64,000 nucleotides of DNA from Bacteroidia bacterium (GTDB lineage: Bacteria > Bacteroidota > Bacteroidia > B-17B0 > Aurantibacillaceae). Positions 34,326-39,581 of this stretch are shown piece after piece. The first letter of the stretch is position 1, and each line of letters starts with the position of its first letter. The notes beneath the pieces were generated by a model. That model was not told where the DNA came from, made no database searches, and saw only the letters and a program-made list of their open reading frames with translations. Location: positions 1 to 64,000 of the forward strand of contig JALHRL010000020.1 in assembly GCA_022841465.1 (NCBI GenBank). Reading direction: 5' to 3'. Position numbers and translations under genes: made by a program.

Positions 34326-35225
34326 ATGTCGGAGCAGCTGATCTCCATATTAATGCCTGCCTATAATTGCGAAAAATTCGTTAAACAAGCTATTGATAGT
34401 GTGCTTGATCAAAGTTACAGTAATTTTGAATTATTGATCGCAGACGATTGTTCAACAGATCAAACCAAAAAAGTAATTGATTCCTATTCAGATCAACGCA
34501 TCAAAAAATTTCATAACCAAGTAAATCTTGGTTATCTAAAGGCATCTAATAAACTTTTTAAGGAATGCAAGGGTGAATACATCACTTTTCAGGATGCAGA
34601 TGATTTCGCAGATAAAAGCAGGTTAGAAAAATTGAAAACTTTTTTAGATGAAAATCATGAAATTGCATGCGTAGGGTCTAATATTATAAAAGTAGATCCT
34701 GAAAATAGAGAGATTTATAGAACAGAGTATCCATTAACAGACGATGCCATTAGAGCCGCGTTTTTAAATTATAGAATTGTTATGACGGGTTCGGCATTAA
34801 TGTTAAGGAGAGAAGTGATAGAAAAGTGTGGCATTTATAATGAATATTTTGATAGGATAGGATCTGAGGACACATATTTGTATTCGTTTATTCTTGATCA
34901 ATTTAAAGTTGCAAACCTTATTGATCGCTTGTATTATTATAGGTCAAATCCAAATTCAATAGGAGTTACACATACTAATCCAAAAGCTGCTATAGGACAT
35001 GGTTTAGTAATATTAATGTATAAAAGACGAATAAATGGGCTTGTCGATTTCATACAAACCCGTAAATGGAAAATGGTTGATAAATACGCGGAGTTTTTGT
35101 TATCTATTAATTTAGTCAAGTCGAGTAGAATGAAAGCTTTATTTTCATTTATAGTTAATTTTATGAAGTTTCCAATTGTTGGTTTTCAGATGACACGAAT
35201 GTTTTTTTCAAATTTCAAGGCATGA
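34326..35225 (+). CDS. Family 2 glycosyltransferase
   Basis: 299 residues. Standard GT2 fold: ISILMPAYNCEKF, then LLIADDCSTD and a DXD-like QDADDF. It should transfer a sugar from a nucleotide donor to the growing lipid-linked chain. Its 5' half keeps the GATC-rich base usage of the previous gene. Overlaps the next gene by 4 bases. Confidence 0.92.
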   Translation: MSEQLISILMPAYNCEKFVKQAIDSVLDQSYSNFELLIADDCSTDQTKKVIDSYSDQRIKKFHNQVNLGYLKASNKLFKECKGEYITFQDADDFADKSRLEKLKTFLDENHEIACVGSNIIKVDPENREIYRTEYPLTDDAIRAAFLNYRIVMTGSALMLRREVIEKCGIYNEYFDRIGSEDTYLYSFILDQFKVANLIDRLYYYRSNPNSIGVTHTNPKAAIGHGLVILMYKRRINGLVDFIQTRKWKMVDKYAEFLLSINLVKSSRMKALFSFIVNFMKFPIVGFQMTRMFFSNFKA

Positions 35226-35971
35226 GTGTTGGCATAGTAATACAAGCAAGAACCACTTCAAAAAGATTACCAAATAAAGTGATTTTACCATTTTATGAGG
35301 AAAAATCAATTATGGAGATAATTATAGAAAAGTTAAAGTCTAAAATAAAACTTCCTATTGTGTTGGCAACAACAGTAAATAAGTCTGACGACAGTTTGGT
35401 TGAGATTGCTAAGAAGTTAGGGATAAAATACTATAGAGGCAGTGAGTGCGACGTTTTGAGCCGTTTCATAAGTTGTGCAGAGGAGTTTGGTTTTTCTTCG
35501 CTTGTTCGAATATGTGCCGACAATCCATTTATAGATGTTAATTTGATTGAAGAGCTTGTGAATTCACACATTAGCCGAATGGCTGATTATACAAGTTACA
35601 GTACTTCAACAAACATACCGGCAATTCGAACCCATTATGGGTTGTTTGTAGAAGTGGTTGAGTATACTGCTTTAAAGAGAGTTAAGGCTGCTACCGATGA
35701 AGCAGTTTTTATGGAGCATGTAACAAATTATATTTATGCTCATCCGGAAGAATTCAAATTAAATTTTTTAGTAATGCCCGAATTTATTGAAAGGTCAAAT
35801 GCAAGATTTACCTTAGACTCTAACGAAGATTGGGATATTCTTTCAGAAATTTATAGAAGTATGATGAATAAAAATGCCGATTTCAGTTCTAGAGAACTGA
35901 TAAGTTTTGCTATGGGAAATAGTAAAGCAGTAAATATAATGAAATCACAAATAGAAAAATTTTCGAAATGA
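35222..35971 (+). CDS. Cytidylyltransferase (SpsF/CMP-ulosonate activating type)
   Basis: 249 residues. The N-terminal nucleotide loop IVIQARTTSKRLPNK and RICADNPF mark the CTP_transf_3/SpsF family. Next to a NeuB-like synthase and a KdsC-like phosphatase it most likely activates the ulosonic acid with CMP. Direct overlap with the synthase gene supports a shared pathway. Confidence 0.85.
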   Translation: MSVGIVIQARTTSKRLPNKVILPFYEEKSIMEIIIEKLKSKIKLPIVLATTVNKSDDSLVEIAKKLGIKYYRGSECDVLSRFISCAEEFGFSSLVRICADNPFIDVNLIEELVNSHISRMADYTSYSTSTNIPAIRTHYGLFVEVVEYTALKRVKAATDEAVFMEHVTNYIYAHPEEFKLNFLVMPEFIERSNARFTLDSNEDWDILSEIYRSMMNKNADFSSRELISFAMGNSKAVNIMKSQIEKFSK

Positions 35972-37008
35972 CCGAGCATACATATGTAATTGGTGAAATT
36001 GGACAAAATCATAATGGTTCGGTTGACATCGCTAAATTGTTGGTAGAAATTGCCGCACGCCCAGTGAAAGAAAATTTGTTTGGTTTAACTCTTAAGTCAA
36101 TGGACGCAATTAAATTAACCAAAAGAGACTTAAATCAAGAATTGTCTGCATCGCAAATGGCTGCACCTTATAACAGCCCCCATTCATTTGGCAAAACATA
36201 TGGGGAACATCGTACCTTTCTGGAATTGAACGATGAACAGCATTTTGAAGTTTACAAACATGCGAAAAGCTTAGGATTAGATTTTATTGAAACTCTATGT
36301 GCAACAGGCTGTCTTTCTATATTGAAGTACTTTACTCCTGACAAACTTAAAGTTGCAAGCAGAGATTTAACTAATTTACCTCTTCTGCATGCCTTATCAG
36401 AAACTAAAATTCCCATTATTCTATCAACAGGAATGGCCGGTAAAAATGAGTTAGATAATGCTCTTGAAATTATAACAAAATTTCATTCAAATATTTCTAT
36501 ATTACACTGCGTTTCTCAATATCCCACACATCCCAAAAATGTTAATTTAAATACAATCTTGTATTTACAAGAACATTATTCGAAATATACCATAGGATAT
36601 TCTGATCATACTATTGGTATCTCAACTCCGTTAGCTGCTGTTGCCATGGGTGCTAAAATTATTGAGAAACATATAACGCTAGATAGAAAATTAAAAGGCA
36701 CGGATCAAGCCGGATCTCTTGGTATCGACGGGATTAACAGAATGATGCGCGATATAAGGGCGCTAGAAATATCTTTAGGAAAAAAAGAACTGTATATAGA
36801 AAATGAAGTTCAGGCGGCAAGAACAAAATTAGAACGATCAATTGCAACAAACCGTAATATAAAAAAAGGTGAGGTAATTAAAGAATCAGATTTACAAATG
36901 CTATCTCCAGGTGATGGATTTAAATGGAGTGAAAAAGATTTAGTAATAGGTAAAACTGTAATTACAGATATTGAAAAAAATGAAATCATTTACAAAAAAC
37001 ATATTTAA
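35968..37008 (+). CDS. neuB: NeuB-family ulosonic acid synthase, divergent
   Basis: 346 residues. A TIM barrel with IGEIGQNHNG, GYSDHTIG and IIEKHITLD, followed by a C-terminal SAF (antifreeze-like) domain (about 285-346). NeuB enzymes condense PEP with an amino or neutral sugar (or its phosphate). The central part is unusual: the region that is normally KIPSGEITN reads KVASRDLTN, and the usual substrate loops before it are changed. The acceptor may therefore not be N-acetylmannosamine. Lies between a cytidylyltransferase and a methyltransferase plus phosphatase. Confidence 0.88.
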   Translation: MTEHTYVIGEIGQNHNGSVDIAKLLVEIAARPVKENLFGLTLKSMDAIKLTKRDLNQELSASQMAAPYNSPHSFGKTYGEHRTFLELNDEQHFEVYKHAKSLGLDFIETLCATGCLSILKYFTPDKLKVASRDLTNLPLLHALSETKIPIILSTGMAGKNELDNALEIITKFHSNISILHCVSQYPTHPKNVNLNTILYLQEHYSKYTIGYSDHTIGISTPLAAVAMGAKIIEKHITLDRKLKGTDQAGSLGIDGINRMMRDIRALEISLGKKELYIENEVQAARTKLERSIATNRNIKKGEVIKESDLQMLSPGDGFKWSEKDLVIGKTVITDIEKNEIIYKKHI

Positions 37009-37763: not shown

Positions 37764-38275
37764 TGGAATTACCTAAACTAATAATAACCGATATTGACGG
37801 CGTTTGGACGGATGGTGGAATGTATTACGATCAAACTGGTAACGAATGGAAAAAATTTAACACCTCGGATAGTGCAGGTGTACTTTTTTGCAAATTAAAG
37901 AATATACCTGTTACAATAATTACGGGGGAAAACACAGAGATAGTTGCGAGACGCGCAAAAAAATTGAAAATAGATTATATAATTCAAGGAGCAAAAAATA
38001 AATTAAAAGAAGCTGAAAATATTTGTAAAATACTTGGAATTGAATTACGAGATGTAGCGTATATAGGAGATGACTTGAATGATATAGAATTATTGTCTAA
38101 TGTAGGAATTTCTGCCTGTCCATCTAGCGCCCCAGATTATGTGAAAAAATACGCTAAAGTAATTACAAAAAATAAAGGTGGCGAAGGTGCTTTTAGAGAG
38201 TTTGTTGAGATTGTATTAAAAGTGTCAGATAATTTTGATGGATTATACTCAGAATATTTAAACCGTGAAAGTTAA
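37763..38275 (+). CDS. KdsC-like HAD phosphatase
   Basis: 170 residues, close to the length of KdsC and of KDN-9-phosphate phosphatase. The HAD motif I is [11 protein letters not shown], with motif II TIITGE and motif [14 protein letters not shown]. It should remove the phosphate from an ulosonate phosphate, which implies that the synthase uses a phosphorylated sugar. Overlaps the previous gene by one base and the next by 11. Confidence 0.9.
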
Positions 38276-39581
38276 TAAAGCTTTTAATAAAGCGATTTCT
38301 TCCTATCGACTAAAAAGTAATGATGATTGGTTTTTGGCAGGTAAATCTTTGCTGGAATTTGTAAGTTTTAGAATAAATTATAATTCTGCCGGATATAGAA
38401 AATTATTGTGGTCAACTTTTAAAAACACCTTAAAAGAAATTATAGTAAATTCCGGAAACAATAATCCGGTAAAATTAAATGGTAACTCACCTTCCGTAAT
38501 TTTGGATTGCTCACTTTCTTATATAGAATTGAGAGAAAATTATGTTAAAACTATTCTCGGGGGTAATCCGGGCACATTATTTTGTAAGAACAATTTAATT
38601 GTTTCTTTTGGGATTAAAGATAAATTCAGTTTGCTATCATACGCTACCTGGTTATTTACGAAATTCTATTTTAAAAAGACCGATGTAAAAACAGGTAAGA
38701 ATTTTGCATTTTTATTGAGAGAAATTGTAGAAAATTATTGCTTGTTTAAACAACTTAAATCTCTAAAAGTAAAAATGCTTTATGATTTTAGCAACTACGA
38801 AGTAGATTCAAATGTAATGTACTTGTTGTGTAAAGAAAATGGAATTGCTGTATACAAAATTCCTTCACCAGGGCCGTTAATTAATCATAATTCAATTCTA
38901 TTAACAGATTATTTAATTGTAAGTTCTGGGTATCATCTTGAAGAACTTCAAGATCTGGAAGATATTAAATATAAAAAACTAATTAAGGCTATGCCTGAAA
39001 TGTCTCCTCTTTTCTTTTCAATTTATAAAAACAACAACGATAAAGCAGATAAACATTCATTAGCATATTACTCACATGGTTCTTGGTTACGTTTATTAGC
39101 GAAAGATTCTGACGTAGGTTTAAACACTTATAACGGAGAAATAGAAACACTAAAATTAATTGGTTCGTTTTTGGAAAAATTCCCACAATTTAAACTTACT
39201 ATTTATTTGCATCCAAGAGAACGTAAGCCAGAACTTGCCAACGATACGATGAATTTTTATAGTAAGTGGTTACCTAAAGATTCTTTCAATTTTTCTATGC
39301 CAAATGAAAAAACCACAGAAAGTTTTACTAAAAGCAACTTGGCCATTGTTTCACTAAGTACAATTTTATTTGAAAGATTATTCATTGGGAAAAAGACACT
39401 TATCTGTAGTAAAGGACTTGCAAATTTTCCAAGAAATGGTAGTTTACTGGAAAACATTACGTTTAATAAACAGAAAAAATTAGAATCACTTGTTTTGGAG
39501 AATTACGAATTAGATGATAAAGTTTTCTTCGATAAAATGAATTTGAACACTTATTTATTTACAAATTTTATTTGTGCATAA
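38265..39581 (+). CDS. Putative surface-carbohydrate transferase, GT-B-like
   Basis: 438 residues, family not recognised with certainty. The C-terminal third ([36 protein letters not shown]) resembles capsule transferases of the polysialyltransferase or CDP-glycerol type, in which HP and ST-containing loops bind a CMP/CDP donor. Its place right after the ulosonate genes makes it a candidate for the ulosonic acid transferase. GTG start. Confidence 0.55.

Follow-up and report, generated by a model that had tools for sequence, protein, structure and literature searches.

The window analysed here is a stretch of 64,000 nucleotides from contig 20 (JALHRL010000020.1) of a Bacteroidia bacterium assembly (GCA_022841465.1; 3.77 Mb in 125 contigs), and it contains a gene cassette predicted to make and modify the nonulosonic acid 2-keto-3-deoxy-D-glycero-D-galacto-nononic acid (KDN). 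Six close-packed genes, from 34326 to 39581, lie inside a longer run of genes on the same (+) strand. The first encodes a GT2 glycosyltransferase (34326..35225; PF00535) and overlaps the cassette, which comprises the genes for an SpsF-like cytidylyltransferase (35222..35971; PF02348, CTP_transf_3), a NeuB-family synthase (35968..37008; PF03102 and PF08666, NeuB and SAF), a CalS11-like S-adenosylmethionine-dependent O-methyltransferase (37011..37763), a HAD phosphatase (37763..38275; Pfam HAD) and a protein of 438 amino acids (aa) from an unnamed family (38265..39581). Their predicted roles are those of a synthetase of cytidine monophosphate (CMP)-KDN, a KDN-9-phosphate synthase, a KDN tailoring enzyme, a KDN-9-phosphate phosphatase and a candidate KDN transferase, respectively. 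The original prediction, made from the DNA sequence alone, had placed the four genes from cytidylyltransferase to phosphatase here, and all four are open, on the same strand and close-packed, with three of them backed by Pfam. They had also been described as overlapping, but a two-base gap separates the synthase gene from the methyltransferase gene, and this pair does not overlap.

Related loci were collected by a contig scan with an alignment whose lead sequence was the BT1713 stretch of Bacteroides thetaiotaomicron, in which we take BT1713 to be the phosphatase gene and BT1715 the cytidylyltransferase gene. This returned 355 relatives, and the best 80 were used. The closest among these 80 of 355 was a locus from an uncultured Bacteroides (L083), with a phosphatase 99 % identical to BT1713. 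Its genes are ordered cytidylyltransferase, synthase, phosphatase, and its synthase, which shares 67 % identity with that of the window, carries the same KVASRDLTN core (residues 128-136 of the window synthase, 36349..36375). In PMC6200933, BT1714 serves as the reference KDN-9-phosphate synthase, with mannose-6-phosphate and phosphoenolpyruvate (PEP) as its substrates.

Residues were compared between 91 close relatives of the window synthase (>60 % identity, with two loci counted twice) and 26 other rows of NeuB type. All 91 relatives have the R and D of KVASRDLTN, which replace Gly133 and Glu134 of NmNeuB; in the other rows, F (14), G (10), A (1) or M (1) stands at the first position and E (24), D (1) or Q (1) at the second. 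Cys likewise replaces NmNeuB Phe112 in 91/91 relatives. Arg314 of NmNeuB, which is Arg in 24 of the 26 other rows, has become Ser in every relative (Ser313 in the window, 36904..36906), and Gln55, kept in 26/26 other rows, is Thr in 90 of the 91. The catalytic and metal-binding residues E25, K53, K129, S213, H215, E234, H236 and D247 are all kept, in the window synthase and in 91/91 relatives. Because Arg314 of NmNeuB helps to position the N-acetyl group of N-acetylmannosamine (ManNAc; PMC6795526), its replacement together with that of Gln55 fits an acceptor that has no N-acetyl group, and from these alignments we infer that the unusual core is the signature of an enzyme that uses such an acceptor.

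A synthase tree of 79 rows, from a quick search with no bootstrap and with several long outgroup branches, placed 43 sampled rows, including the window and L083, on one side of a branch with a Shimodaira-Hasegawa-like approximate likelihood ratio test (SH-aLRT) value of 100, apart from the NeuB, PseI and SpsE references. The original prediction had read the divergent core as the sign of a new kind of ulosonic acid. Consistent with this, the window synthase scores below the curated cut-offs for NeuB (TIGR03569; 256.6 vs 399.65 bits) and PseI (TIGR03586; 201.4 vs 340.25 bits). However, the L083 synthase is also under both (238.6 and 195.8 bits), and the core is fixed in all 91 relatives, one of which is the synthase beside the 99 % copy of BT1713. 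A new sugar on these grounds is highly improbable, and that claim is not supported. With L083 standing for BT1714, the synthase falls in substance within a characterised clade and keeps its residues, but the clade is that of the KDN-9-phosphate synthases and not NeuB, LegI or PseI.

Two other products were considered and rejected, namely legionaminic or pseudaminic acid, as PseG was not found in the genome and the curated cut-offs were missed, and N-acetylneuraminic acid 9-phosphate, as Arg314 is lost. Some loci include further NeuB-like sequences. Directly upstream of the KDN-9-phosphate synthase, L064 (6040-7713), L072 (4638-6302) and L074 (12051-13811, minus strand) encode a NeuB-like domain fused to a cytidylyltransferase. 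This domain (21-24 % identity as aligned) has changes at the positions of NmNeuB Lys53, Thr110, Ser132 and Ser213 and keeps Glu25, Lys129, Tyr186, His215, Glu234, His236 and Asp247. L075 encodes a cytidylyltransferase-synthase fusion in which the R and D of the core are also present.

The window phosphatase scores 259.5 bits against NF058599, the curated model for KDN-9-phosphate phosphatases, and passes its cut-off of 180, which bears out the phosphorylated route proposed originally. Matches above this cut-off were found in 21 of the 395 genomes of a class sample, while 11 of 14 well-known control genomes had matches and none of these was above it. Among solved structures, its best match is PDB 3e81 (E 3.6e-63, 63 % identity), which we take to be BT1713. 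Glu56, Arg64 and Lys67 of BT1713, which we assume to be important, are invariant in all seven aligned rows, including the window phosphatase. Identification of the window gene as a phosphatase of 3-deoxy-D-manno-octulosonic acid (KDO) was rejected; NF058599 gives 95.8 bits at another place in the genome, C15, which may be KdsC.

For comparison of whole cassettes, 100 loci (L063-L162) were fetched. Those without a synthase of the window group beside the phosphatase (L075, L080, L081, L114 and L126), those with a cut synthase (L120 and L142) and two duplicates (L128 and L134) were dropped, leaving 91 distinct cassettes without the window. In 79 of these 91, a relative of the cytidylyltransferase is encoded upstream of the synthase, at a distance of less than 300 bp. 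The window cytidylyltransferase is above no NCBIfam cut-off. It has the CTP_transf_3 domain and adjoins the synthase gene, as expected of a BT1715-like enzyme, and is predicted to be a CMP-KDN synthetase.

Several observations weigh against this assignment of the core. BT1714 itself was absent from the comparison, with L083 as its close proxy, and the window cytidylyltransferase shares only 38 % identity with its positional counterpart in L083. The depositors' label for PDB 3e81 is acylneuraminate cytidylyltransferase. Phosphatases above the NF058599 cut-off occur near a different NeuB at L080 and L081 (genomes G302 and G273), and the L126 phosphatase (59 % identity) is likewise found with a different NeuB; these three NeuB proteins share 33-35 % identity with the window synthase. 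A match to NF058599 alone is thus no proof of KDN, and the phosphatases at these three loci perhaps act on another 9-phosphate sugar. The L080 phosphatase forms part of a 383-aa frame. Finally, searches of the genome revealed no type I phosphomannose isomerase. The missing isomerase and the L080 and L081 phosphatases favour a synthase that uses another hexose-6-phosphate, such as ManNAc-6-phosphate, and yields a 9-phosphate other than KDN-9-phosphate, and sequence does not fix the acceptor. We nevertheless consider this improbable, since the window synthase has the grouping and the active-site pattern of a BT1713-type locus, and the N-acetyl contact Arg314 is Ser in all 91 close relatives.

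Regarding the supply of acceptor, a 130-aa frame in the genome matches MannoseP_isomer, and a bact-PGI_C domain (PF10432) scores above its cut-off. We take PF10432 to represent a bifunctional glucose/mannose-phosphate isomerase (PGI/PMI), and this protein could supply mannose-6-phosphate. NeuB has one strong match in the genome and a second of 30.8 bits, above the Pfam cut-off. The original prediction had noted that LegG, PseG and NeuC partners are missing. This holds for PseG, which was not found in the genome, and for NeuC, which has matches only below cut-off; LegG was not searched separately. With mannose-6-phosphate as the acceptor, their absence would be expected. On the sequence evidence, the core very probably makes CMP-KDN from mannose-6-phosphate and PEP, as in the BT1713-1715 type.

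The cassettes vary in the slot between the synthase and phosphatase genes. Counting the window, the slot is empty, defined as a gap of <200 bases, in 69 of 92 distinct cassettes. A CalS11-like gene occupies it in eight cassettes (7/91 without the window) from at least four coded families, and a hexapeptide acyltransferase in ten, including L154. Of the other five, L136 encodes an Acyl_transf_3 protein in the gap and L129 a GT2 protein; L066 and L077 have frames that could not be assigned, and L135 shows nothing separate there. At L072, the CalS11-like gene is accompanied by another methyltransferase gene. Five hexapeptide proteins were scanned (L154 and four others), and the four others were nearest to serine acetyltransferase models, with all matches below cut-off. 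The cassette gene order recurs across many genomes and is not attributable to chance. When the three slot states were mapped on a quick synthase tree (90 rows, 85 with a slot label), 9 changes were needed (minimum 2), but the well-supported branches require just one for each state; the mapping is thus suggestive of repeated exchange of the slot gene. The synthases nearest to that of the window on this tree (L162, L064 and L074) all have an acyltransferase in the slot, where the window has a methyltransferase.

The window methyltransferase matched no Pfam family at E<=0.01, and its NCBIfam matches were weak, unrelated and far under cut-off. Its sole PDB matches were the CalS11 entries 4gf5 and 3tos (E 3.2e-51), which cover residues 14-233 and are nearly full-length, and the earlier description as TylF-like is therefore apt in a broad sense only. 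Asp186 aligns with Asp191, the putative catalytic base of CalS11, and is invariant in the six cassette rows aligned, including the window. CalS11 methylates thymidine diphosphate (TDP)-rhamnose, i.e. acts at the sugar-nucleotide stage (PMC4760980). Matches at E<=1e-25 were found in 31 of the 395 genomes, and 16 records in a plasmid collection also match. With a methyltransferase of this type inside the cassette, the methylated nonulosonic acid of the original prediction is plausible.

Twenty places encoding a methyltransferase of at least 47 % identity, including the window, were examined for NeuB-family genes. One was present within 1.5 kb in eight and within about 5 kb in three more (11/20). 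In the remaining nine none was found; eight of these are stretches spanning 11-17 kb, and the ninth (L192) is a contig end of <2 kb. The methyltransferase family therefore extends beyond nonulosonic acids. This counts against KDN as the substrate, and the slot position alone leaves the order of steps unfixed. The cassette might instead produce plain KDN, with the methyltransferase modifying a different sugar within the same glycan, an alternative that also draws on the empty slot in 69 of the 91 cassettes besides the window and on other methyltransferase genes in the window. However, at least four coded families have the methyltransferase gene in this very slot, and an acyltransferase takes its place in other cassettes, a pattern that would be expected if these enzymes tailor a single substrate. 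On balance we regard methylation of another sugar as unlikely, though to be taken seriously, and the methyltransferase probably O-methylates KDN.

CalS11-like methyltransferases were also seen near other NeuB-family genes (L169, L170, L182, L206 and L207), and L170, L206 and L207 also hold relatives of aminotransferases and cytidylyltransferases. In one of the matching plasmid-collection records, from Acetoanaerobium noterae (NZ_CP154629.1), a relative (53 %) is directly beside a NeuB-family gene. These cases hint at methylation of other nonulosonic acids.

Homologues of the 438-aa protein were sought by BLAST and then with a profile, within the frames of the 100 loci collected. Eleven were found at 10 distinct loci, each directly after the phosphatase gene; one further, weak homologue is on the opposite strand. 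The protein itself has no Pfam match; the 11 rows of the family gave two weak single-row Pfam matches (best E 0.088), and the family profile had no match in PDB at E<=10. Structure prediction from three rows gave a mean predicted local distance difference test (pLDDT) score of 42.8. Bacterial sialyltransferases of GT-38, GT-52 and GT-80 are described as having an HP motif and a D/E-D/E-G motif (PMC2169525). HP is present in 11/11 rows of the family, and D/E-D/E-G before HP in 0/11. The protein may work like a bacterial sialyltransferase, though its sequence is not assignable to GT-38, GT-52 or GT-80, and we propose only tentatively that it builds the sugar into a glycan.

Elsewhere in the window, a Wzm/Wzt-type ABC exporter with a Wzt C-terminal domain is encoded at 21016..23161 on the + strand (PF01061, PF00005 and PF14524). 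This exporter probably has a role in glycan export, and the GT2 glycosyltransferase at the start of the six genes probably has one in glycan assembly. HisH-like, HisF-like and ExsB-like genes are found at 19647-21016 and 28937-30145, a trio that we associate with acetamidino-sugar synthesis of the WbpG type. L077 and L082 have an ExsB homologue after the homologue of the 438-aa protein, plus two frames that are HisH-like and HisF-like by eye.

Taken as a whole, the locus is best read as a KDN pathway of the BT1713-1715 type with added O-methylation of KDN, and we think this reading likely, if well short of certain. The synthase would condense mannose-6-phosphate and PEP to KDN-9-phosphate, the phosphatase would remove the phosphate to give KDN, and the cytidylyltransferase would activate KDN to CMP-KDN. 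O-methylation of KDN would most likely take place on CMP-KDN, by analogy with CalS11, and O-methyl-KDN would then enter an ABC-exported surface glycan, perhaps via the 438-aa protein. The core pathway is of a known kind, and the methyl branch is plausibly a new variant. More speculatively, and with little confidence, the KDN cassettes of Bacteroidota could have an exchangeable tailoring slot for O-methyl or O-acyl groups, with O-methyl-KDN serving here as a non-reducing-end cap that terminates an ABC-exported polysaccharide and is recognised by the Wzt C-terminal domain.

The SRD core, Ser in place of Arg314 and an adjoining KDN-9-phosphate phosphatase together provide a sequence rule for proposing KDN producers. 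The cassettes also supply named candidate genes for methylation or acylation of KDN in bacteria, which to our knowledge are the first. If the reading is correct, O-methyl-KDN, already known as a sugar, gains an enzyme that can be tested, and a single gene slot could reveal some of the variety of surface sugars in Bacteroidota.

The predicted product is of a kind already on record, as the title of a 1998 paper reports 5-O-methyl-KDN from Sinorhizobium fredii. That polysaccharide contains the same kind of sugar as predicted here, and the methylated position of the window product may differ. A gene for a KDN methyltransferase was not found in the open-licence papers searched. The Bacillus subtilis SpsE/SpsF system for legionaminic acid also pairs a NeuB-type synthase with a putative cytidylyltransferase, SpsF (PMC7439481). 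However, it starts from uridine diphosphate (UDP)-linked precursors, SpsE shares about 30 % identity with the synthase of the window, and neither the word phosphatase nor 9-phosphate occurs in the text of that paper. CalS11, a TDP-rhamnose 3'-O-methyltransferase, resembles the window methyltransferase over residues 14-233, with the putative catalytic Asp kept. It differs in setting, as the window gene lies in a KDN cassette and its predicted substrate is therefore KDN or CMP-KDN. The system most similar overall is BT1713/BT1714/BT1715 of B. thetaiotaomicron which, as seen through L083, shares with the window the gene order, the phosphatase family, the synthase group and motif, and an SpsF-like cytidylyltransferase; the window differs in having a methyltransferase gene between those for the synthase and the phosphatase, where L083 has none.

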